28,519 nt of DNA. It comes from a virus. The DNA lies in the IMG/VR virus record IMGVR_UViG_3300037258_000151, positions 1-28,519 of that record; one strand, written 5' to 3'. Within the stretch, counting starts at the first letter, position 1. Each line of letters begins with the position of its first letter. Below are positions 8,013-26,221 of this stretch, piece after piece. Below the pieces are notes generated by a model that ran no database searches, was not told the DNA's origin, and saw only the letters and a program-made list of their open reading frames with translations. The position numbers and the translations under genes are program-made.

Positions 8013-9064
8013 GCGCAACGTTCCGCAAATACATTCCGTTCTCGAAGGTCGACGAAGCAAAGCGTGAAGTCTGGGGCATCGTCACTGCCGAAGTGCCGGA
8101 CAAAGACGGCGAAGTCTGCGACTACGACACCACCAAGCCGTACTACAAGGCCTGGAATGATGAGTTCAGCAAGGCTACTGACGGCAAGAGCATTGGCAAT
8201 CTGCGGCGCATGCACCAGCTCGACGCGATCGGCAAGGGTGTGGGGATCGACTTCAACGATCCGAACCGCGAGATCTCCATGGGGTTCAAGGTCACTGACG
8301 ATCGCTCCTGGAACGATGTCCAGGAAGGCGTTCTGACAGGCTTCAGCCACGGCGGCTCGTATGTCAAGACATGGCAGGAAGACGGCAGGCGCTACTACAC
8401 GGCTGAGATCTCCGAGGTCTCGCTGGTCGATAACCCCTGCCTGGGCGTGGCGCACTTCGCGTTTATCAGGGCAGACGGCGAAGTGGAAATGCGCAAGATT
8501 CGCAGTGAGGCAGTTACGGCCGTAGACGCAACGGGGGAAGCGTTGAAGGCTTTGCAAGCTGAGTTGGCCGCTATCAAAGCGGATTTGGAGAAAGGGAAAA
8601 ACAGTATGGACCTCGAAAAAGCAAAATCCGCGATGGGCCACTTGAACAAGGCGATGGAACATCACGGCAAGATGGGCGATCACATGCAAGAGTGCATGAA
8701 GTGCATGGGTGAAGGCGGCACGGAAAAGGCTGCTGGAACTGGCACCGCGGCCGCCGCTGGCACGTCTCTCACTATGGCGGATGTCCAGAAGGCCATCACC
8801 GACAGCATGAATGCTGCGTTCCAGGGCTTCGCGAAAGCGATCACGCCGGCGGCCGCTGGCGGTGTCCAGCAGACGCAGCTCGTGACCAAGTCCCAGGACG
8901 CCCTCGGATCCGGAGTCAAGAAGCAGACCGTTAACGACATTCAGGACGATGCCTCTGACGTCAAGCCACTGAAGACCGTTGGCGCAATGGCGCGCGCTGC
9001 CGCGACCATTGAAGCTGGCACCCCACCGGCAAACGTACTGGCCATCGTCGGGGGAAGGCACTAA
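8009..9064 (+). CDS. Prohead protease with C-terminal scaffold region (XkdF/S78-like)
   Basis: A 351-residue protein. ATG 8009 in an ATGA overlap is preferred over GTG 7979, which would overlap the previous gene deeply. The N-terminal ~165 residues form a prohead protease-like domain: GIVTAEVPDKDGEV, then RRMHQLDAIGKG with candidate catalytic His69, then EISEVSLVDNPC with candidate Ser138. Such enzymes cleave scaffold and capsid proteins during maturation. The remainder is a scaffold: a coiled coil (ALKALQAELAAIKADLEK), a Met/His/Cys-rich stretch (about 208-235), a Gly/Ala linker and an amphipathic C terminus. An internal start at 8606 probably yields the scaffold alone. It lies directly before the capsid gene, as in HK97 and lambda. 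Confidence 0.85.
   Translation: MSATFRKYIPFSKVDEAKREVWGIVTAEVPDKDGEVCDYDTTKPYYKAWNDEFSKATDGKSIGNLRRMHQLDAIGKGVGIDFNDPNREISMGFKVTDDRSWNDVQEGVLTGFSHGGSYVKTWQEDGRRYYTAEISEVSLVDNPCLGVAHFAFIRADGEVEMRKIRSEAVTAVDATGEALKALQAELAAIKADLEKGKNSMDLEKAKSAMGHLNKAMEHHGKMGDHMQECMKCMGEGGTEKAAGTGTAAAAGTSLTMADVQKAITDSMNAAFQGFAKAITPAAAGGVQQTQLVTKSQDALGSGVKKQTVNDIQDDASDVKPLKTVGAMARAAATIEAGTPPANVLAIVGGRH
8606..9064 (+). CDS. Probable nested scaffold protein (internal in-frame start)
   Basis: The ATG at 8606 lies in frame inside the protease/scaffold gene and is preceded by the purine-rich GGAGAAAGGG at 8587-8596, a better ribosome site than many real starts here. Translation from it gives 152 residues that contain exactly the scaffold half (MDLEKAKSAMG onward) and none of the protease. 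Lambda C/Nu3 is the classic case of such nesting. No protein data are available, so this rests on the start context and the domain boundary. Confidence 0.5.
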   Translation: MDLEKAKSAMGHLNKAMEHHGKMGDHMQECMKCMGEGGTEKAAGTGTAAAAGTSLTMADVQKAITDSMNAAFQGFAKAITPAAAGGVQQTQLVTKSQDALGSGVKKQTVNDIQDDASDVKPLKTVGAMARAAATIEAGTPPANVLAIVGGRH

Positions 9065-9078
9065 CAAGCTTTTAGCAG

Positions 9079-9121
9079 GAAGGGCGCACCGCTCGGCGCT
9101 CCTTCGAAAACAAACGAAGGA
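9079..9121 (+). promoter_or_regulatory. Two mutually exclusive hairpins before the capsid gene
   Basis: Hairpin A pairs GAAGGGCGC (9079-9087) with GCGCTCCTTC (9096-9105), with one bulged T. Hairpin B pairs CCTTCG (9101-9106) with CGAAGG (9115-9120). Both need 9101-9105, so only one can form. Hairpin B buries the capsid gene's Shine-Dalgarno GAAGGA (9116-9121), while hairpin A frees it. There is no T-tract, so this is not an ordinary intrinsic terminator. A translation switch is inferred from complementarity only. Confidence 0.5.
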
Positions 9122-9130
9122 CACAAAACC

Positions 9131-10732
9131 ATGGATGCGCTCTTAACTCAGGAAACTCTCGAACTCCTCAAGGCAAGCCCTCTTGCTAAGGACACCACCA
9201 CCACCGGTATCTCGACTGGCACCGGCCTGCTGTTCTATAACTTGGAACCGCTGGCTCGCCGCATTTACCCGGTCCACTATCCGCTGCTCGCGAGCATCCC
9301 GCGCGTCGTTTCGCCGAATGCTGGCAGCGGTACAAGCGTCAACTGGAAGGCAATCGTGGGCGCTGATTCCACGAACGGCGGTTACCCGGGCATCTCGGAA
9401 GGCCACCGCAACGCATTCATGCCAGTTACCGAACGCAACTACCAAGCGGCGTTCAAGTACCTCGGCAAGGACATCTTCACGACCTTTCAGGCGCAGTATG
9501 GCGGCGAAGGTTTCGACGATGCCCGCGGACAGGCGCAGGTTAACCTCCTGAACTCGCTCCTCAACTCCGAAGAGCGCATGATCCTGTTCGGCAATTCCGG
9601 CACGTCGGGGCTCGGCAATGGCTTCCAGCTCGGGACCTGTGGCGCCCCGACAGTGGCCCTCAAGGCGACTGCGGCAATCGTGGCTTCGCAGGCCGTTGGC
9701 TCTGGCTTCGCTAACTCCACCAATGTTTCGGTAGCGTGCGTGGCCCTAACCGGCTGGGGGCTACAGATGGGCTCGGTCTCGTCTGGCATCGTGACTTCGT
9801 TCACGCGCACCAATGCGGACAGCACTCCGGACGTGATCTACGGGGGCTCCTCAGCGATCAGCGCAATATCCGCAGTCGTGACGGCCCTCACCGCTACGCC
9901 TTATGTCCAGGCCACTGTAACCCCGATTGCAGGCGCGATGGGCTATGCCTGGTATGTAGATTCCACCGACGCGGGCACCGGCAGCTTAGCGAACGCGAAA
10001 CTGGTGGCCATCACCCCGACGCCCACCGTTTATCTCGGCAGCGTAGCGGCCGGCGGAGCGCAGACCGGAACGGCGACGGGCTTGAATGCTGACAACAGCG
10101 CTAACCCCCTCGACTTCGACGGCATCACGACTTGGACGCTAGGAGTCGGTCAGGCGCAGGGTTCCTACTGGAAGGATCTCCGCGGCGCTGGACTCACGGC
10201 GAACGGTGACGGGACGATTCAGGAGTTCGAGGATGTTCTGAACTACCTCTGGAACGCTTTCAAGTTGGCCCCGAGCAAGATCTACGTCGGCGGCTCGCTG
10301 ATCTCGACCATCACGAAGGCAATCTTGACTGGCCCTGCGTCCGGCTCCACAACCGGCGTATCGGTTCAGCGCTTAAACTTCACGACTGACCAGGCGGGCG
10401 CGTTGACTGGCGGAACGCTGGCGGCGAGCTATCGCAAGAAGTACATCGTCTCGGCGCAGGCCGGTACGGCGGACATCCCGATGCAGACGCACCCCTGGCT
10501 GCCCGATGGCGTGATTCTGTTCGACCTCGAAGAGAATCCATACCCTGGCTCGAACATCCCGGCAGTGCGCCGCATCATGACGATGGCGGATCACTTCTCG
10601 ATCGCATGGCCGCTGAAGAGCCTGCAATGGGAAATTGGCGCGTACTGCTTCGAAACGATGCAGCACTATATCCCGTTCGGGAGCGCCATGCTTACCGGCG
10701 TCGGGCACTTGGTGAACGGACAACCGGCCTAA
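9131..10732 (+). CDS. Major capsid protein (HK97 fold) with central insertion domain
   Basis: A 533-residue shell protein, preceded by GAAGGA 9 nt from ATG. The N-terminal arm is followed by HK97-type segments (LARRIYPVHYPLLASIPRV, YQAAFKYLGKDIFTTFQAQY, LNSEERMILFGN) and, at the end, the P-domain-like QWEIGAYCFETMQHYIPFGSA. Between about residues 165 and 335 lies a beta-rich, Ala/Thr/Gly-rich insertion that looks like an Ig- or fibronectin-like surface domain; the core resumes near GSYWKDLRGAGLTANGDG. This makes the protein longer than the basic fold of about 300-400 residues. The gene stands between two non-coding gaps with hairpins, unlike its overlapping neighbours, consistent with separately tuned high expression. 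Confidence 0.88.
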   Translation: MDALLTQETLELLKASPLAKDTTTTGISTGTGLLFYNLEPLARRIYPVHYPLLASIPRVVSPNAGSGTSVNWKAIVGADSTNGGYPGISEGHRNAFMPVTERNYQAAFKYLGKDIFTTFQAQYGGEGFDDARGQAQVNLLNSLLNSEERMILFGNSGTSGLGNGFQLGTCGAPTVALKATAAIVASQAVGSGFANSTNVSVACVALTGWGLQMGSVSSGIVTSFTRTNADSTPDVIYGGSSAISAISAVVTALTATPYVQATVTPIAGAMGYAWYVDSTDAGTGSLANAKLVAITPTPTVYLGSVAAGGAQTGTATGLNADNSANPLDFDGITTWTLGVGQAQGSYWKDLRGAGLTANGDGTIQEFEDVLNYLWNAFKLAPSKIYVGGSLISTITKAILTGPASGSTTGVSVQRLNFTTDQAGALTGGTLAASYRKKYIVSAQAGTADIPMQTHPWLPDGVILFDLEENPYPGSNIPAVRRIMTMADHFSIAWPLKSLQWEIGAYCFETMQHYIPFGSAMLTGVGHLVNGQPA

Positions 10733-10739
10733 CACGACT

Positions 10740-10765
10740 TTCGTCCAGGCCTCCGACTGGACGAA
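10740..10765 (+). promoter_or_regulatory. Hairpin downstream of the capsid gene
   Basis: TTCGTCCAG (10740-10748) and CTGGACGAA (10757-10765) form a perfect 9-bp stem with an 8-nt loop, starting 8 nt after the capsid stop. No T-run follows (TCAAA), so efficient intrinsic termination is unlikely. mRNA 3'-end protection or partial termination is more plausible. Confidence 0.55.
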
Positions 10766-10769
10766 TCAA

Positions 10770-10801
10770 AGGGGTCTTTAGTCGAGCGGCTAAGGGCCCC
10801 T
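10770..10801 (+). promoter_or_regulatory. Second hairpin before the connector gene
   Basis: AGGGGTCTTTAG (10770-10781) pairs with CTAAGGGCCCCT (10790-10801) over 12 positions, including two G-U pairs, with an 8-nt loop. It ends 12 nt before the ATG at 10814, which has no clear Shine-Dalgarno, so it may limit connector translation or stabilise the capsid message. The stretch AGTCGAGCGGCTAAGG resembles a tRNA D-arm, but no tRNA body follows. Confidence 0.5.
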
Positions 10802-10813
10802 GAGACCACTCAG

Positions 10814-11467
10814 ATGCCACTCACCACACAACCTCAGGACCTAACCACCGTCGCGCTGGTGGCGGCTTGGATGAACATAACCGGCAATGCCGCGAATGAC
10901 ATCATCCAGGGCGCGATCACTGCTGCGTCAACCATGGTCCTGCAGCGTACTGGGGTTGCATCGCTTAACTCGCTGGCCAGCTACACCGAACGCTATGACG
11001 GCAACGGTGGCAAGCGGCAGTTTGTACTCAACCCTCTGATCACCGCAGTCGCTTCGGTTGTGGTTGGCGGGATCACTCTCGCGCAATCGACCGACTATGT
11101 TTCGCCCGGTTGGGTCATTGACCAATCAAAGAAGAGCATTTCACTCATAGGCCCGATGCTGAATGCGGTCGGTTATAGCAGCTACGCGATCTATGGTCTC
11201 GCGCCGGCAAAGTTCCCGATGGGCAACCAAAACGTGGCGATCAGTTACACCGGCGGCTATTCCGACTCGACCACCGCAACGCATGCGCCGTGGGACGTAG
11301 AGCAGGCCGTTACGGAGCTCGTCGCAATCAATGTTTCTCGCCGTGGCTGGATAGACAAGGCCTCGCTGGACCTGAAAGAGGGCGGCACAACGACTTATCA
11401 ACGGTGGGAAATGACGCCGTCGATTCAGGGCGTGATCTCGCGTTATACCCGGAGGGCGATCGTCTGA
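10814..11467 (+). CDS. Head-tail connector protein (gp6-like)
   Basis: A 217-residue protein of the HK97 gp6/SPP1 gp15-like adaptor type, which forms a ring under the portal and joins head to tail. The N-terminal helical part (DLTTVALVAAWMNITGNAANDIIQGAITAASTMVLQRTG) matches the usual connector bundle. A beta-rich middle (VASVVVGGITL...VAISYTGGY) and the typical late helix DVEQAVTELVAINVSRRGWI follow. It lies directly after the capsid gene and before the neck genes, the normal position. The stop overlaps the next ATG (TGATG). Confidence 0.82.
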   Translation: MPLTTQPQDLTTVALVAAWMNITGNAANDIIQGAITAASTMVLQRTGVASLNSLASYTERYDGNGGKRQFVLNPLITAVASVVVGGITLAQSTDYVSPGWVIDQSKKSISLIGPMLNAVGYSSYAIYGLAPAKFPMGNQNVAISYTGGYSDSTTATHAPWDVEQAVTELVAINVSRRGWIDKASLDLKEGGTTTYQRWEMTPSIQGVISRYTRRAIV

Positions 11468-12752: not shown

Positions 12753-13520
12753 ATGGGCAACTACATTCAGTTCGGATCGGGCATCTTATACGTAAACCCC
12801 AATGCGGGCAACCTTGCGACCAACCCAACGCCGACACGCGGCCTGACCATTCAGGATATAGCGATCGACCAAAAGGGAGAAATCAAAGAACTGCGCGGAT
12901 CAAGCCAGTATCCCGACGACACAGCGAAGGGCGACGTAAAGGGGACGTTCAAGTTCGGCATCGGCCGCAAAGACTTCTTGATGTTGAACCAGATCTTCTA
13001 CGGCGACGTCCAGGCGGCCGGCGGAACATCGGTAGCGGTGGACGTTTCGGGGTCGATTCCTGCGACTAGCACTTATACCGTGACGCCCACCGTTCCAGGC
13101 TCCGGGACGTTCTCCGTTGATCTAGGCGTTCGCTATGCGGCTACCGGCATCGAGTTTATAAAGGTGGCGAGCGGCCCAACGGTTGGACAGTATGCGGTTT
13201 CCGCCGGCGTCTACACATTCGCCGCGGCCGACGAAGGTGTAGCGGTGCTGTTCGGCTTCGCCTATACCTTGACAGCAACCGGAGCGACATACCAGGTGAA
13301 CAACCAGGCGATGGGCTATGGGCCCCAGTTTGAGGCTTACATCGTCGATCAGTATCAACCGAAGAGCGGCGTTTACTCCACCGTGCGGCTCTATGCCTGC
13401 AAGATTACCGGCGTGAGCATGACCAACAAGCGCGACGACTACGACAAGCCAGAACTCGACGGCACTTTTTTCGCTGCTGCCTCTGGTCGAGTCATCGACT
13501 GGTATAGCAACGTGGGATAG
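12753..13520 (+). CDS. Major tail protein with an inserted repeat module
   Basis: A 255-residue tail-tube protein with Shine-Dalgarno AAAGGA before ATG. Tube-type strands appear early (IQFGSGILYVNP, GEIKELRGSSQYP, KGTFKFGIGRKDF) and late (PKSGVYSTVRLYACKITGVS). In between, about residues 137-172, lies a module of the form G-x-Y-x-V-x-G-x-Y-T-F-x-A-A-D-x-G that also occurs twice in the tail-tip protein. A CTGGTCGAGT copy falls at 13483-13492 near the gene's end. A 75-bp gap with a hairpin follows. Confidence 0.85.
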   Translation: MGNYIQFGSGILYVNPNAGNLATNPTPTRGLTIQDIAIDQKGEIKELRGSSQYPDDTAKGDVKGTFKFGIGRKDFLMLNQIFYGDVQAAGGTSVAVDVSGSIPATSTYTVTPTVPGSGTFSVDLGVRYAATGIEFIKVASGPTVGQYAVSAGVYTFAAADEGVAVLFGFAYTLTATGATYQVNNQAMGYGPQFEAYIVDQYQPKSGVYSTVRLYACKITGVSMTNKRDDYDKPELDGTFFAAASGRVIDWYSNVG

Positions 13521-19164: not shown

Positions 19165-22100
19165 ATGAGCCTCTTCAACTCTCCGAACGCCAACGCGAAT
19201 TCGAAGCTCTCGAACGTCCAGGTCACCCAGGCGATCCAGGGCAGCGTGATCCCGTTGGTGTTCGGGAGGAACCGGGTTGCAGGCTTCCTGCTCTGGTACG
19301 GCGACTTCCGGGCCACGGCGCAAAAGCAGCAGGGCGGCGGAAAAGGGATCGGATCTCCGACCACCACAACGTGGGATTACACGGCGGCAATGCAGATCCT
19401 GATTTGCCAAGGCCCCATCGGATCAGTCCCGCAGATCTGGAACACAAACGGCCAGATCGGGCAATCGAACAACGTCGAGAATTACACTGTCCCGCCTGGC
19501 GGCGGCAGCTACACGATAAGCCAAGGAGCATACAGCCCAACCGATCAGGGCGTCACGGTTGAGGGATCATTTAGCTTCACGGCGAACGATTATGGCTCAC
19601 CTGGGCCGACTTCATTCAGCGGCACGTGGGGCGTCCCGATGCAGGCCGTTGCGTCCAGTCCGGCAACTGGACAGTACACCTTCAACTCGGCTACGGGCAC
19701 TTACACCTTCAGCGCGGCGAACGCTGGAGCGGTGGTAACGGTCTATTACAGCTACAGTCTGCAATGGCTCACGACCAGCGAGATCTACAACGTTCCGCCA
19801 TCATCGCCATGGCAGATCGGTGTGCAGAACGCTGCCACCTTTCACGGCAACATCAGCGTCGTGTTCTATCCCAGTGGCACGCTGCTGACGAAGGTTGGTG
19901 GAAGCCCGACAGCCACCGGGCAATATCAGGTTGTTGGCAGCGGCGTTTATAACTTCTTTTCTGGTGATGCAAACAAGGCTATCGAGATCACCTATCAGTA
20001 TGAGGACAATTCCGCGCTCACGCTGCCTTCTACGGCTCTGAACCTTACGCTATTCAACGGTGCGCAGGGGCAAGCCGCATGGAGTTGGTTGATCGCTCCG
20101 TTCCCCGGCAACGTGCTGGGCTACACGCAACTCGCGTACATGGCCAGCAGCGAGTTCCAGCTCGGCACAACGGGCGAGATGCCGAACTACAACTATGAAG
20201 TTGTGGGGTTCTTCCCGTTCGGCGGCAGCATTCAGGACGCGCACCCGTGCGATGTGATCACGGGCCTTCTTATTGAGTCGGCTTATGGCGCCGGTTTCCC
20301 GGAGGCTAATCTCGATAATTGGAAAAACGGAAGCACCAGCGTCTACAACTTCTGGGCCGCTAACAATTTCTTCATCAGCCCGATATTGAACTACCAGCAA
20401 ACGGCGGCATCGATCATTCAGGAATTCATCGAAGCCGGGCAGGCTGGCATGTATTTCTCGGAAGGCCTGCTGAAGCTGAAGCCATACGGAGACACCTCGG
20501 CGGCCGCGAACGGGTATGTCTTCAATCCGCCAACTACCCCGATCGTCGATCTCGACGACGATGATTTTATAAGCGATGGGGGCAGTGACGAAGATCCGGT
20601 AACGTTCAGCCGGGCGGACCCGATGGACATCTGGAACGCCGTGAAGGTGCAGTACTCGCCGCGGATCAACAGCTACAACTCGGACGTCGTTGAGGAAAAG
20701 GACGATTCGCTGATCTCGATCTATGGCTTGCGGGCGGAAGCGAGTCAGGATTATTCGTTCATCTGCACGGTCCAGGCGGCTCAGTTCGCTGCAAACCTGA
20801 GGCTGCGGCGTCAGTGCTACATCCGCACAACCTACCAATTCTCGCTTGGCTGGAACTACTCATACCTGGAGCCGATGGATCTTGTTACGATCCCGCAGGG
20901 CGTGCTGGACGGAACCGGATCAACGGTCAAGGTTCCAGTGCGCATTACGGAGATCCAGGATGATGAGACGGGCGAACTGAAGATCACCGCGGAAGAGTTT
21001 CCGTGGGGCAATGCCAGCGCCACGCTCTATCCAAAACAGAGCGGGAGCGGGTTCAATCCGGCGGCTGGCAATGCAGATCCCGGCAATACCGTTGCGGTGG
21101 TGATTGAGGCTCCTAATCGGCTGGCGCTGCAAAAGGGGAACATCCTTTATATCCTGTGCACCGGATCTACGCCGGACTGGGGCGGATGCGATATCTACGT
21201 TTCGACAGACGGTACGGATTACACCTTCTACGAGCGCTGCAACACGCCGGCACGTACCGGGGTTTTGCAAACCGCGCTCCCCTCTGCGTCCGGAACCGCT
21301 ACAGGGTTCACGGCATCGCCCAACCCGGCGACCGGTCTGGCGAGCCACACAGCGACGTTCTCAACGACCCTCACGTGGAGCGCTGCTGGCTACACCACTG
21401 TAGATATCTATCTCGGCGGCGGGCCAGGCGTGGGAACGCTCGTCTTTAGCAACCAATCTCCAAGCTCGTCCGGATCCGTCACAGCCACAACGGGCAATCA
21501 ATACTATCTCTGCGATCATGTTTCCGGATTCGTGATCGCAATTCTGGGAGTCATCGGTACCACCGCGACACCAACGGGAGCAGGCAGCATCTCGGCCACG
21601 CCGAACCCGATCCCGGTAGATGGTGCTACCTCTCTCGGACTTTGCGAGGTCGCGTGGAGCGGCGGAACGAGCAACACCCAAATATGGGTAGGCTACCCAA
21701 CCTCAGCCGAGGGCGGAACGCTTTGGGGCGCTGGACTATCCGGAACATCGTTTTCCTTCACTGGCCAGTGGGTACAGAACGGGCAACCATATTACCTTGT
21801 GGACGGAACAACTGGGACCGTCTATGCGGTTACCACCCTATATCTGAGCTTCCCCTATGTCGGGCAAGAAGTTACGGTCCAAATGGCGACCCAGTCAATG
21901 ACCCTGTCTAGCGTGAATGCGGCTTCCGCGGCCCAGGATCAAACGCTATCGGCGATCATTTCTTCGGGTGGCGTAGAGCTGTTCGACTACCAGGCGGCAA
22001 CGCTCATTGGTCCAGGCCTCTACCAACTGCAGTCATTACTCCGCGGCGTCATGGGCTCAAGCGTCGTCGCCCACGTCGTCGGTGATCAGTTCGTACGCCT

Positions 22101-23094
22101 CGATCAAGCCGCGGTCGAGTATCAGTTTGACCCGAACTATCATGGGGCGACCATCTACCTGAAATTCGTGTCATTCAACACCCTGGGCCAGATGCAGCAA
22201 AGCCTAGCAAACGTAAGCCCATTGACCGTTGCACTTCTCGGCGCCGGACAGGGGCCGATCGCGCTTGAGACCGGGATATTTCAGGCAGGACTCGGGGCGG
22301 TTCCGAACTCGTACGCGGGAACGCTCACTTACACCTCGGCAACGACCAGCATCTCATGGACCTGGAATCTGACCGTCTATCGTACCGACAGCAACCTAAC
22401 GGTAAACACGTATGCCGGCCAGCAAGGGGTGAATGGACTTACGGCGAACACGTCATACAACTTCTACCCATTTCTGGATGATTCCCAATCCCCTTCGGTT
22501 GTGACCATGGTCACGGACGGAGGCGTAGGCAGCCCGGCTTGGGCGCACTCGGGGACGAATGTGCTGTGGACGCAAGAGCAAGCGAGCGCTAATCACCTGG
22601 CGCTCTCCAGCGGCCCTGTCGCAGCGGCGACCACCACCAGCGGAACGGGCGGAGGAAGCGGCGGCGGAACGGGCGGAGCATGCCCGCGAGAGGACATGCG
22701 GGTGCGGGAGCGCACATACGGAGTGATCCCGTGCGGTGAGCTATTCGTGGGGGCCGAGATCGAGGCGGATTGCGGGTGGGTGCGCGTGAAGCGCTGCGAC
22801 CGTAAGCAACGCTACCTATGGATCGAGATCGATACCGATTGCGGCGAAACCCTGGTGGTAACCCCGATGCATCGCTGGCCAACAATGGAACGGGAACTGG
22901 TCGCCTCGAACGCCTTGACGGTCGAATCAATCCTTAAGCAGCGGGACGGAGCTGCATTCATTAATGGCCTGAGAGTGCTCCGCGAGGAAGCATGTGCGAT
23001 CGCGCTGGAGGTGGAATCGCTGGAGCACTGCTACTACATCGGCTCCGCGGAGCCCTGCATCCTGACCCACAATCTGCAACCGGACATCAGCTAA
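19165..23094 (+). CDS. Large tail-tip (J/RcGTA gp15-like) protein with C-terminal Hint domain
   Basis: A 1309-residue protein. The N terminus (VIPLVFGRNRVAGFLLWYGDF) matches siphovirus host-specificity tip proteins. Two copies of the YTF module sit near residues 161-198 and 243-280. The central part resembles phage tail-tip domains (WNAVKVQYSPRINSYNSDVV, near 490). Two tandem Ig-like repeats (about 710-895) resemble repeats common in Acidobacteriota proteins (TASPNP..., SATPNPIPV...). After a Gly/Thr linker, residues 1173-1303 form a hedgehog/intein domain: Cys1173 as first residue, VTPMH (Thr1233, His1236; block B), CYYIG (near 1289; block F) and ILTHN with His1302-Asn1303 (block G). Six residues follow, the first being Leu, not Cys/Ser/Thr, so normal splicing is not expected but cleavage is. 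The tip would recognise the host and trigger ejection. Confidence 0.88.
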   Translation: MSLFNSPNANANSKLSNVQVTQAIQGSVIPLVFGRNRVAGFLLWYGDFRATAQKQQGGGKGIGSPTTTTWDYTAAMQILICQGPIGSVPQIWNTNGQIGQSNNVENYTVPPGGGSYTISQGAYSPTDQGVTVEGSFSFTANDYGSPGPTSFSGTWGVPMQAVASSPATGQYTFNSATGTYTFSAANAGAVVTVYYSYSLQWLTTSEIYNVPPSSPWQIGVQNAATFHGNISVVFYPSGTLLTKVGGSPTATGQYQVVGSGVYNFFSGDANKAIEITYQYEDNSALTLPSTALNLTLFNGAQGQAAWSWLIAPFPGNVLGYTQLAYMASSEFQLGTTGEMPNYNYEVVGFFPFGGSIQDAHPCDVITGLLIESAYGAGFPEANLDNWKNGSTSVYNFWAANNFFISPILNYQQTAASIIQEFIEAGQAGMYFSEGLLKLKPYGDTSAAANGYVFNPPTTPIVDLDDDDFISDGGSDEDPVTFSRADPMDIWNAVKVQYSPRINSYNSDVVEEKDDSLISIYGLRAEASQDYSFICTVQAAQFAANLRLRRQCYIRTTYQFSLGWNYSYLEPMDLVTIPQGVLDGTGSTVKVPVRITEIQDDETGELKITAEEFPWGNASATLYPKQSGSGFNPAAGNADPGNTVAVVIEAPNRLALQKGNILYILCTGSTPDWGGCDIYVSTDGTDYTFYERCNTPARTGVLQTALPSASGTATGFTASPNPATGLASHTATFSTTLTWSAAGYTTVDIYLGGGPGVGTLVFSNQSPSSSGSVTATTGNQYYLCDHVSGFVIAILGVIGTTATPTGAGSISATPNPIPVDGATSLGLCEVAWSGGTSNTQIWVGYPTSAEGGTLWGAGLSGTSFSFTGQWVQNGQPYYLVDGTTGTVYAVTTLYLSFPYVGQEVTVQMATQSMTLSSVNAASAAQDQTLSAIISSGGVELFDYQAATLIGPGLYQLQSLLRGVMGSSVVAHVVGDQFVRLDQAAVEYQFDPNYHGATIYLKFVSFNTLGQMQQSLANVSPLTVALLGAGQGPIALETGIFQAGLGAVPNSYAGTLTYTSATTSISWTWNLTVYRTDSNLTVNTYAGQQGVNGLTANTSYNFYPFLDDSQSPSVVTMVTDGGVGSPAWAHSGTNVLWTQEQASANHLALSSGPVAAATTTSGTGGGSGGGTGGACPREDMRVRERTYGVIPCGELFVGAEIEADCGWVRVKRCDRKQRYLWIEIDTDCGETLVVTPMHRWPTMERELVASNALTVESILKQRDGAAFINGLRVLREEACAIALEVESLEHCYYIGSAEPCILTHNLQPDIS

Positions 23095-23496
23095 ATGAGA
23101 CGCCTTTACGTAACCCAGAAATCCGTATGGTCCGGACCGCACAAATGGGCGGAAGGCCACACGCGGCCGCGATACGAGTTGTGCCACCCGCAGACCGGCT
23201 CTCACTATATCGACCTGCCCGGCGGCTTTATCCTGTGCAGCACGGACTTTGCGAGCGAGTGGGCCGAGGAAGAATGGCACGCGCACCCGGAGATCGCGCG
23301 GCTCCCGCATCCGACGATGGAGGGCGGCGTGAAGCTGGGCGACCTACTGACGCCGGCGTGGGAGCACAAACAATACCGGGCGCACCATCGCGAGGCGCTC
23401 GCGGCGATCGGGATCGAGGACGCCCACACCGTCTGGGACGTCCACCGCATCGCGAAAGCTATCCACCCGCTCGTGCGGCTGAGTCACACGTATTGA
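23095..23496 (+). CDS. Unrecognised His/Trp-rich protein after the tail tip
   Basis: A 133-residue protein whose ATG follows the tip gene's TAA with no gap, in the same frame. It is rich in His and Trp (SGPHKWAEGHTRPRYELCHP, EWHAHPEIARLPHP, HHREALAA, DVHRIAKAIHP). No signal peptide or membrane helix is seen. The N-terminal half is strand-like and the C-terminal half helical. The many histidines could bind metal, but no enzyme motif is recognisable. It may be a tail-tip accessory protein, a chaperone for the Hint-bearing tip, or unrelated. No strong ribosome site is seen, so translation probably depends on termination of the tip gene. Confidence 0.6.
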   Translation: MRRLYVTQKSVWSGPHKWAEGHTRPRYELCHPQTGSHYIDLPGGFILCSTDFASEWAEEEWHAHPEIARLPHPTMEGGVKLGDLLTPAWEHKQYRAHHREALAAIGIEDAHTVWDVHRIAKAIHPLVRLSHTY

Positions 23497-23533: not shown

Positions 23534-23607
23534 CGCGGGTTAGTAGAGTGGCTCTACGCTAGGCTCATAACCTTGAAACGCCGGTTCAACTCCGGCACCC
23601 GCTACCA
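23534..23607 (+). tRNA. tRNA, CAT anticodon (Met/fMet or Ile2), CCA encoded
   Basis: The 74-nt cloverleaf has a D stem GTAG/CTAC with loop AGTGGCT, an anticodon loop CTCATAA, a 4-nt variable loop, a T stem GCCGG/CCGGC with loop TTCAACT, and an encoded CCA end. The acceptor stem has six pairs plus a C1.T72 mismatch. An unpaired C1 is a hallmark of bacterial initiator tRNAs, but the D-stem pair T11-A24 is elongator-like, and the anticodon stem has a T.T mismatch. CAT also occurs in Ile2 tRNA after lysidine modification, so identity is open. Confidence 0.88.
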
Positions 23608-23815: not shown

Positions 23816-26221
23816 ATGCTAACGAGGGTAATTGCGCTCGCCCTGCTCACTTGCGGTGCGCTCTTTGGTCAGGCCTACACGACCATCACGGCGAATCAGA
23901 TAAAAGACAATAATGGAAACCCGTTGGCGTCCGGGAATCTCTGTTTCGTCGCGACCGACTCCGCTAACAGCAACATCACGTATACGCCGTCTGGCGGATC
24001 TCCCATCTCGTCCGGCACGCCGGTCTGTGGGACGGTCACTGCTGGCGTGCTCGCCTCCGGATTCCAGATAGCCAATATCGCGACGGCGAGCCCGGCTGGA
24101 CTCAATTACCGAGTCTTCACAAGCGACGGCATCTCGACCGTCTACGTCATTGTCCCGCTGGTCACTGCGGTCACTGGCGCGTCGTTCAACTGGGATGCGT
24201 ATGCTGCGCAATCGCTGAATAGCGGATCTTTCAAGGTAACTGGCGACGGCGTACCGCGCATTGCCTGCAACGCTGGAGCGCAATACGATCAGACCGACGT
24301 GACGGCGCACTGGCTATGCGTGAACATCGCTGGGCAGGGAAGCTGGGGCCTCAACGGCATCATCCCGAACCAGGGCAGCGTCGGACTCTTCGGAGCGCAG
24401 GCCGTGCTCGGATTCTATCCGGGGCTCTTCGGCGCATTCGATACGGGCATCTCGCGGCAATCCGCCGGCGTCCTGGCGCTGGGCAATGGCACATGGGGCG
24501 ACACCTCGGCGACCGTTAAGGCTGCCCATTTCGTGGGCGACGGCTCGGAGCTCACCAACGTGGCCTCAACCGTGATGAGCATCAAGAGCCTCGGCGCGAC
24601 TTGCAACGGAGCCTCTGACGACACCACGGCGCTGACGACTCTTGCCACCATGGCGAACGTAACCGTCGTATTCCCGTCCGGCGGCGCATGCGGCCTCAGC
24701 GCTAACATCACCATCCCGAGCACGGTTCAGATCCAAGTGCAGTCCGGAGGTGGTATCGACGTAGCCAGCGGATTCACCCTCACCGAGAGCGGTCCGATTG
24801 ATGCGGGCCAGTACCAGATATTCTTCGGCTCCGGAACGGTTTCCGTGACGTTCCAGCGCGACGTCTACGCGTACTGGTTTCCGGGTAGCGGCCTGGGGGC
24901 TCAGGTTACAGCGGCCGTTGCAGATCTCGGCGTGGGATGCGGACACATCAGATTGCCGCGGACTAGTACAAACTTTTCCACCACGTGGAATCTGGACAAC
25001 AGCGTCGGGTGCGACGTCGACGGCGGCGGAAGCATCACGGGCGGAAGCGCGACGAATAACGTCTACCTGATCTACACCGGAACGAGCAACATAATCAGCG
25101 CCCGCTCAGCCACCGGACTAAAACTACACGGCTTCTCGATAGTGGCCAACAATGGCAGTTTTAATGCGAAGGGAATCGACCTCACGCATTCATCGGCAGC
25201 CACCGACACCTTCAAGGCCAAAATCTCGGATATAGCCTTAGTGACCACGGCTGGCGCGAAGTACTCGATTGCCGTAGATTTCAACCTGGCTATTGATTCC
25301 TCGATCGAAGATTCGCTCCTCGCTGGCTATGTGATCGGGGTGAATGGGACAAGCTCCGCAAGCCCCGGGTACTCGAACGCGAATGGGATCAAGCAAGTCG
25401 ACTTCGAATCTTCCTCGGTCAGTACTTATTCGATCCTTAACCCCGGCGAAGGTTGGTCTATTGATAACGACACCTTCGAGAATGGCGGAAACACAACCCT
25501 GTCACCGATCGGATGCAACCTGACTGGCGGGAATGAATTTAAAGCCGCTGGCGTAGTCATCACTGCTGGCTGGTTCGGGGATTGGGCGAACAACTCAAAC
25601 GCAACCCAAGTGCAGGTGTGCGGTCCAGGCTGGAACGTTGCGGGCAACTTCATGGCTGGACCGGGGGGAACCCCAACCTTTAACGAGTTCTCCATTACCG
25701 CTGGAGTGGCCGGGTTCAGCGCTACGGCGAATGATTTCGACATTGTCAGCACGGGCACGAACAACATCGTAAACCTGGGATCTCCAAACGCAAACATCGT
25801 GCTCATGGCGAACAAGATGGAATCTGCGCCGACCAACTTCCTGGTAGGTACATGCACGAACGGATACATCACGGATTACAACGGCGCGCAGTTGTGTCCG
25901 TATCCGTCCGGCCCCCTATCTGGAAGCTTCAATGCTACGACTGCGCCGACGCTCCCCGCGCAGGTCGGAGGAAGCGGCGCATTCTTCACCGGCGGATACG
26001 CAAGCCCAACTGTAGGCGCGCTTTACATTGGCGACGGCTCTGGATATCACTTTGTCTTCCGCAAGCGCGTATCGAGCACTGACACCGACCTGGGCTACAT
26101 CCAGGACAACGGAACCTTGCATTTCTCCGGATACTTCTCCGGGGCTTCCGCCGGCGTTTCTTGCACCGGCACACCGACTTCACTCTTCACCAGCTTAAAT
26201 GGCATCGTGACGCACTGCTGA
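23816..26221 (+). CDS. Tailspike/fibre-like beta-helix protein with a signal peptide
   Basis: An 801-residue protein. The first ~20 residues are a classic Sec signal (MLTRVIALALLTCGALFGQA): short basic start, hydrophobic core, small residue at the end. Next come a beta domain (about 22-130), a fibre-like segment with HFVGDGSELTNV (about 240-251), and a pectate-lyase-type start SLGATCNGASDDTTALTTL (about 257-275), equivalent to the GAKGDGVTDDT motif of tailspikes. A long right-handed beta-helix-like region rich in Asn/Gly follows. The C terminus (YIGDGSGYHFVFRKR...TLHFSGYFSG) resembles fibre tips. Phage fibres normally lack export signals, so this is either an exported fibre, a secreted surface-acting enzyme, or a host-modifying protein. 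It has no Shine-Dalgarno. Confidence 0.8.
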   Translation: MLTRVIALALLTCGALFGQAYTTITANQIKDNNGNPLASGNLCFVATDSANSNITYTPSGGSPISSGTPVCGTVTAGVLASGFQIANIATASPAGLNYRVFTSDGISTVYVIVPLVTAVTGASFNWDAYAAQSLNSGSFKVTGDGVPRIACNAGAQYDQTDVTAHWLCVNIAGQGSWGLNGIIPNQGSVGLFGAQAVLGFYPGLFGAFDTGISRQSAGVLALGNGTWGDTSATVKAAHFVGDGSELTNVASTVMSIKSLGATCNGASDDTTALTTLATMANVTVVFPSGGACGLSANITIPSTVQIQVQSGGGIDVASGFTLTESGPIDAGQYQIFFGSGTVSVTFQRDVYAYWFPGSGLGAQVTAAVADLGVGCGHIRLPRTSTNFSTTWNLDNSVGCDVDGGGSITGGSATNNVYLIYTGTSNIISARSATGLKLHGFSIVANNGSFNAKGIDLTHSSAATDTFKAKISDIALVTTAGAKYSIAVDFNLAIDSSIEDSLLAGYVIGVNGTSSASPGYSNANGIKQVDFESSSVSTYSILNPGEGWSIDNDTFENGGNTTLSPIGCNLTGGNEFKAAGVVITAGWFGDWANNSNATQVQVCGPGWNVAGNFMAGPGGTPTFNEFSITAGVAGFSATANDFDIVSTGTNNIVNLGSPNANIVLMANKMESAPTNFLVGTCTNGYITDYNGAQLCPYPSGPLSGSFNATTAPTLPAQVGGSGAFFTGGYASPTVGALYIGDGSGYHFVFRKRVSSTDTDLGYIQDNGTLHFSGYFSGASAGVSCTGTPTSLFTSLNGIVTHC

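Follow-up and report, generated by a model that had tools for sequence, protein, structure and literature searches.

The tail-tip protein encoded in a 28.5-kb virus record of IMG/VR (IMGVR_UViG_3300037258_000151; the whole stretch of 28,519 nucleotides is called the window here) ends in a genuine intein-like Hint domain, and this domain belongs to a scattered family of Hint domains in the tail proteins of soil phages. The domain is best filed as a variant resembling the A-type bacterial intein-like (BIL) domains, with predicted activity, and autoprocessing is likely. With a rough probability of 0.48, i.e., a little short of even, this mini Hint domain excises itself and rejoins the linker before it to the peptide LQPDIS after it during tail-tip maturation.

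Identification of the Hint domain

The tail-tip gene (19165–23094, plus strand) encodes a baseplate hub-like protein of 1309 residues, similar to the GTA megatron and Rcc01698. The protein matched Phage-tail_3 (1.3e-23) and Rcc01698_C (1.4e-13) in Pfam, the tail protein family phrog_1101 (7.8e-85) in PHROGs, and GTA_megatron in NCBIfam at 4.5e-42, a match under that family's curated cut-off. The tail-tip core is alike, at 29–36% identity, in the GTA megatron/Rcc01698 and in relatives from Acinetobacter, Pseudomonas and Brevundimonas phages; no Hint was found in the annotated phage relatives examined from these three groups, whereas the window's tail tip has one. Residues ~710–905 (~21290–21880) form an insertion of ~190 repeat-like residues that is absent from the relatives in alignment A2, and phrog_8234 matched both tail-tip residues 155–199 and an upstream tail gene (12753–13520), marking a module common to the two.

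The final 137 residues of the protein (1173–1309; 22681–23091) comprise the Hint domain and a short end peptide, and the C-terminal part reads GGGSGGGTGGA-CPREDM...VVTPMHRWP...EHCYYIG...ILTHN-LQPDIS-stop. A Gly/Ser/Thr-rich linker, TSGTGGGSGGGTGGA (residues 1156–1172; 22630–22680), which in Hint-less relatives forms the C-terminal tail as well, is followed by the domain itself, 131 residues from Cys1173 to Asn1303 (22681–23073). The C-extein-like end peptide LQPDIS (23074–23091), 6 residues resembling the LPxx ends of Hint-less proteins, then precedes the stop codon; all of these features are on the plus strand. Within the domain lie Cys1 (Cys1173; 22681–22683), the predicted nucleophile of an N-S acyl shift, the block-B His (His1236 in VTPMH; 22870–22872), and the block-G pair His1302-Asn1303 (23068–23073), the predicted site of Asn cyclisation. 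These landmarks, which a preliminary description of the DNA had picked out together with CYYIG, are all present in the open reading frame at 19165–23094, and the residue at +1 is Leu1304, in agreement with the absence of a +1 nucleophile noted there. There is no room in the domain for a homing endonuclease.

The AlphaFold2 model of the domain had a pLDDT of 94.3. In VIA comparisons, residues 1–131 of the model were superimposed on residues 1–125 of the gp41-1 intein (6riz), with Z 20.3 and an rmsd of 1.2 Å over 123 residues; the scores were Z 18.2 against the BIL domain 2lwy and Z 18.6 against hedgehog autoprocessing domains. The 50 top-scoring entries of the VIA table were all inteins, BIL or hedgehog domains (Z 15–20), and the top entries found by Foldseek, at a TM of ~0.83, were of these three kinds only. 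As a single sequence, the window's Hint had no match in Pfam, NCBIfam or PHROGs because it is too diverged to be seen singly, and its best match in the PDB was the gp41-1 intein at E 0.79. A 12-row profile of the window's domain and 11 relatives, searched against the PDB, matched gp41-1 at 2.3e-10, the C. thermocellum BIL domain 2lwy at 2.1e-7, and a DnaB intein at 4e-6. Shuffling the domain 20,000 times never produced the landmark pattern C-(50–90)-TxxH-(40–110)-HN-(0–10)-end, and of the 5,430 ORFs in the loci retrieved, the only ones to contain it were those of Hint-bearing tail proteins. Fold, from AlphaFold2, Foldseek and VIA, and profile homology thus agree on the Hint identity that had been claimed from the letters alone, the model matching known Hint structures, gp41-1 and BIL among them.

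Downstream, the stop codon of the tail-tip gene abuts the start (TAA ATG) of a gene for a protein of 133 residues (23095–23496, plus strand) that had no family match. Small genes resembling this one sit after many Hint-bearing tail tips and after some, or a few, Hint-less ones, and their products are perhaps partners of the tail-tip C-terminus. A tRNA-Met (CAT) gene at 23534–23607 lies within the tail-gene cluster, between the 133-residue gene and a gene for a tail-fibre-like protein of 801 residues (23816–26221). The N-terminus of the latter is an apparent Sec signal peptide (MLTRVIALALLTCGALFGQA), which is odd for a virion protein; a similar signal-like N-terminus is found directly after the tail tip in Hint-less relatives (e.g., L226, L233 and L300).

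Hint domains in other viral tail tips

Relatives were found by alignment-guided scans of viral contigs, which yielded a few hundred related tail tips. When the Hint, the tail protein and TerL were each searched as single sequences against viral contigs, there were no matches, and tblastn searches of cultured phages with four Hint domains found nothing convincing. Most of the relatives have no Hint; 16 distinct tail tips, the window's included, end in one (the others being L020, L111, L112, L122, L124, L127, L129, L133, L154, L166, L169, L205, L274, L293 and L314). All 16 have a Gly/Ser-rich linker, Cys1, and 4–8 residues between the Asn and the stop. Among the first 12 domains, which reach down to 21% identity to the window's, only Cys1, the block-B His and the Asn were invariant, the pattern that selection on a catalytic domain should leave, and Gly14 and the block-G His were kept in at least 90%. 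In an alignment of 18 domains Cys1 (18/18) and the Asn were still invariant, with the block-B His in at least 90%. The catalytic residues named in the preliminary description, Cys1 and Asn, are strictly conserved in the family, and the two His residues are strictly or nearly so. At +1 the relatives have G, Y, V, F, P, L, M or I, and Ser once (L133). The block-G His is absent in L265, and in L124 (8001–8525) it is replaced by Cys (TCN for THN) in a Hint that is otherwise intact. A downstream motif in Pseudomonas phage KT1 (L003, ADTEISTPIGSAPLAELV) was rejected as a Hint; it belongs to a repeated spike-like protein without block B or HN.

The Hint is located in the exchangeable C-terminal part of the tail tip. 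Because its presence requires at least eight gains or losses on the tree of tail cores, the module appears to have been gained and lost repeatedly, coming and going among tail tips. It also evolves faster than its surroundings, L111 and L112 being 63% identical in the Hint and 80% in the remaining protein; dS was saturated in most pairs, and dN/dS of the Hint was of little use.

Hint domains were also found at a second site and on other proteins. In three proteobacterial relatives, L085 (8169–8657), L103 (ORF from 7248) and L351 (1252–1755), a Hint sits in the Gly-rich loop close to the N-terminal end of the tail protein, flanked by Gly on both sides and with Gly at +1; for these, splicing is the one reaction that would keep the chain intact. 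C-terminal Hints after a Gly linker, with 5–6 residues following, were present on a tail-fibre-like protein (L335, 103–1938, plus strand), a 1575-residue ORF (L338, 1486–3405, minus strand), a PA14-domain protein (L265, second ORF, 8088–10913, plus strand), and another phage protein (L429, ORF from 6955). Genome-wide Hint matches in Acidobacteriota and Pseudomonadota were, judging by flanking residues, mostly on other proteins; only two were on this tail protein, both of the N-terminal-loop kind.

The end peptide and the predicted reaction

After the Asn, Hint-bearing tail tips end in GNILPRS, GNILPRC, GNTLPRS, GGGVLPRS, GGILPTTG, VNKIPVS, VVPTS, FIPYC, YSANPC, LQPDIS and others, often a short peptide of the type hydrophobic-Pro-x-Ser/Cys. 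In Hint-less relatives that share the Gly linker, the C-termini are GRPLPQS, GRPLPGM, NNKLPQM, SRKLPQM, GRPLPRN and similar peptides, and when the Hint was removed in silico the resulting tails aligned with the Hint-less tails. Since LPQM, LPQS or LPGM closes the same Gly linker where no Hint is present, the Hint looks inserted, and the simplest reading of these sequences is an intein-like insertion that separates the linker from an end peptide that stays useful. An internal Pro was present in 11/16 Hint-bearing ends, 16/20 Hint-less Gly-tailed ends and 3/127 other tips, counts that are partly non-independent, most Hint-less cases with the Pro motif coming from one clade of the tree; with the L111 clade collapsed, the Hint-bearing count was 8/13 (Fisher 6e-8). 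A terminal Ser or Cys, found in 9/16 Hint-bearing ends, 3/20 Hint-less Gly-tailed ends and 11/127 other tips, may be a displaced nucleophile in the Hint-bearing end peptides. A Shine-Dalgarno origin for the common PRS/PRC ends was rejected, given that the codons vary (TCA, TGC, TCG, TCT, AGC) and that the ribosome-binding sites lie mostly after the stop. LPTTG in L205 was likewise rejected as a sortase signal; elsewhere the ends read LPRS, LPQM and the like, and there is no membrane segment downstream.

Hint domains work through an N-S shift at Cys1 and cyclisation of the Asn. The window's Hint, with a flexible Gly-rich linker before it and a short conserved peptide closing the chain after it, would act on its own protein. 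Cys1173 would convert the Ala1172-Cys1173 bond to a thioester, and Asn1303 would cyclise, releasing the end peptide. The +1 residue is not Cys, Ser or Thr, being Leu in the window's protein and often Gly elsewhere in the family, and for this reason the released peptide would attack the thioester directly with its amino end, so that the Hint would be removed and the linker joined to LQPDIS, giving a C-terminus as in Hint-less relatives. We consider this the best explanation of what was observed, i.e., the fold, the catalytic residues, their conservation, the position of the domain, and an end peptide resembling the C-termini of Hint-less relatives. That the reaction occurs, that it runs in this order, that cleavage is followed by ligation, and that it serves tail-tip maturation, we infer. 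According to reviews, A-type BIL domains without a +1 nucleophile are capable of both cleavage and splicing (PMC5874633, PMC7765530). Splicing is favoured over simple discarding of the end because the Hint looks inserted before an end peptide that seems to be kept, and the N-terminal-loop Hints of L085, L103 and L351 speak for it too; against splicing are the 5/16 end peptides without the Pro motif and the block-F Asp, which is Ala in the window.

The main rival of splicing is cleavage alone, a possible reading that we hold tentatively, in which the Hint would remove itself by hydrolysis of the Cys1 thioester and/or by Asn cyclisation, the end peptide would be lost, and the tip would end in a Gly-rich tail. 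Such an outcome is consistent with the missing +1 nucleophile, BIL domains that lack one giving predominantly cleaved products (PMC7664689), with Hint-less relatives that stop almost straight after the Gly run (GGGGRNIY, GGGGGHNIL, GGGGRQFF), and with the C-terminal Hint modules on other phage adhesin-like proteins (the tail fibre of L335 and the PA14 protein of L265). Against it, the protein would shed a peptide whose hydrophobic-Pro-x-x type is found again with strongly diverged Hints and in Hint-less relatives. Thus the self-cleavage to a Gly-rich tail of 1172 residues put forward in the preliminary description is a possible outcome, though not the one that fits best, since the 4–8 residues after the Asn are conserved in kind and match Hint-less C-termini.

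That match suggests retention of the end peptide, whether through splicing or because no cleavage takes place, and an unreacted Hint would likewise leave it at the C-terminus. A Hint that is folded, no longer reactive, and serving as a structural cap to display the end peptide would account for the retention without ligation. The faster evolution of the Hint than of the remaining protein (63% versus 80% identity, L111/L112), the block-F Asp that is not kept, and the Cys replacing the block-G His in L124 point the same way, but the strict conservation of Cys1, the block-B His and the Asn at ~20–39% identity makes an inert domain improbable. Least credible is a transfer reaction coupling the tip C-terminus, through the Cys1 thioester, to a virion protein, lipid, sugar or host surface: Cys1 and the Hint fold are intact, and hedgehog autoprocessing domains, which transfer their acyl group to cholesterol, match the model (Z 18.6), but the protein has no region beyond the Hint for binding an acceptor or adduct, conservation extends to the Asn and block-G His, which are dispensable for hedgehog-type transfer, and no acceptor candidate was found, so that the attachment to a host amine or hydroxyl suggested at first drew nothing in its support from the sequence.

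Relation to known Hint systems

The gp41-1 intein, a phage-type class 1 mini-intein (6qaz/6riz), is the closest solved structure and the best profile match, with equal length and the same HxW/F block B. It has Ser at +1 and interrupts a conserved enzyme, whereas the window's Hint lies in a dispensable-looking linker and has no +1 nucleophile (Leu1304), and for that reason is not class 1. The usual class 1 block-F Asp is also replaced, by Ala in the window and by Gly, Asn or others in relatives at a position assigned by eye. Neither is the domain class 3 (no Cys1, a WCT motif, and a block-F Cys), because Cys1 is present; the Cys of CYYIG is, by eye, off the block-F nucleophile position. It is not a hedgehog domain because it has no acceptor-recognition region, the stop coming 6 residues past the Asn. 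Nor is it part of a polymorphic toxin: in PT-HINT proteins a toxin follows the Hint, whereas in all C-terminal cases of the window's family only 4–8 residues do. Some family members matched PT-HINT, Vint and Hint_2 (PF07591, PF14623 and PF13403) weakly (best 5e-6 for PT-HINT and 1e-4 for Vint); the window's domain itself matched none of the three.

The A-type BIL domain of C. thermocellum (2lwy) shares with the window's Hint Cys1, the block-B TxxH, the terminal HN, no required +1 nucleophile and no endonuclease, and both lie in a variable, non-conserved part of the protein. The window's family differs in being on phage tail tips, where a Gly-rich linker invariably precedes the Hint and just 4–8 residues come after it, and in having an end peptide that resembles the natural C-terminus of Hint-less relatives. 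The autocleaving C-terminal intramolecular chaperone domains of tailspikes and fibres are likewise self-removing C-terminal domains on tail adhesins, but their fold and chemistry are unrelated, and a Hint must bring its own Cys/Asn chemistry.

Hint, intein and BIL domains are well known, and phage inteins lie mostly in replication and packaging enzymes. In the literature surveyed, which included few subscription journals, no intein in a tail tip was found, nor any C-terminal tail-tip Hint with a conserved C-extein of 4–8 residues and without a +1 nucleophile. The fuller picture, in which the tail tip is matured by built-in splicing without a +1 nucleophile, the conserved end peptide is religated, and the terminal Ser/Cys may be the displaced nucleophile, is doubtful. 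The family is a possible source of short-C-extein, Gly-flanked mini-Hints for protein ligation, and its pairs of Hint-bearing and Hint-less tail tips are a natural test for splicing by domains without a +1 nucleophile in nature. If the domain is self-excising, its place at the end of a receptor-binding protein would provide virions with a post-translational maturation switch.
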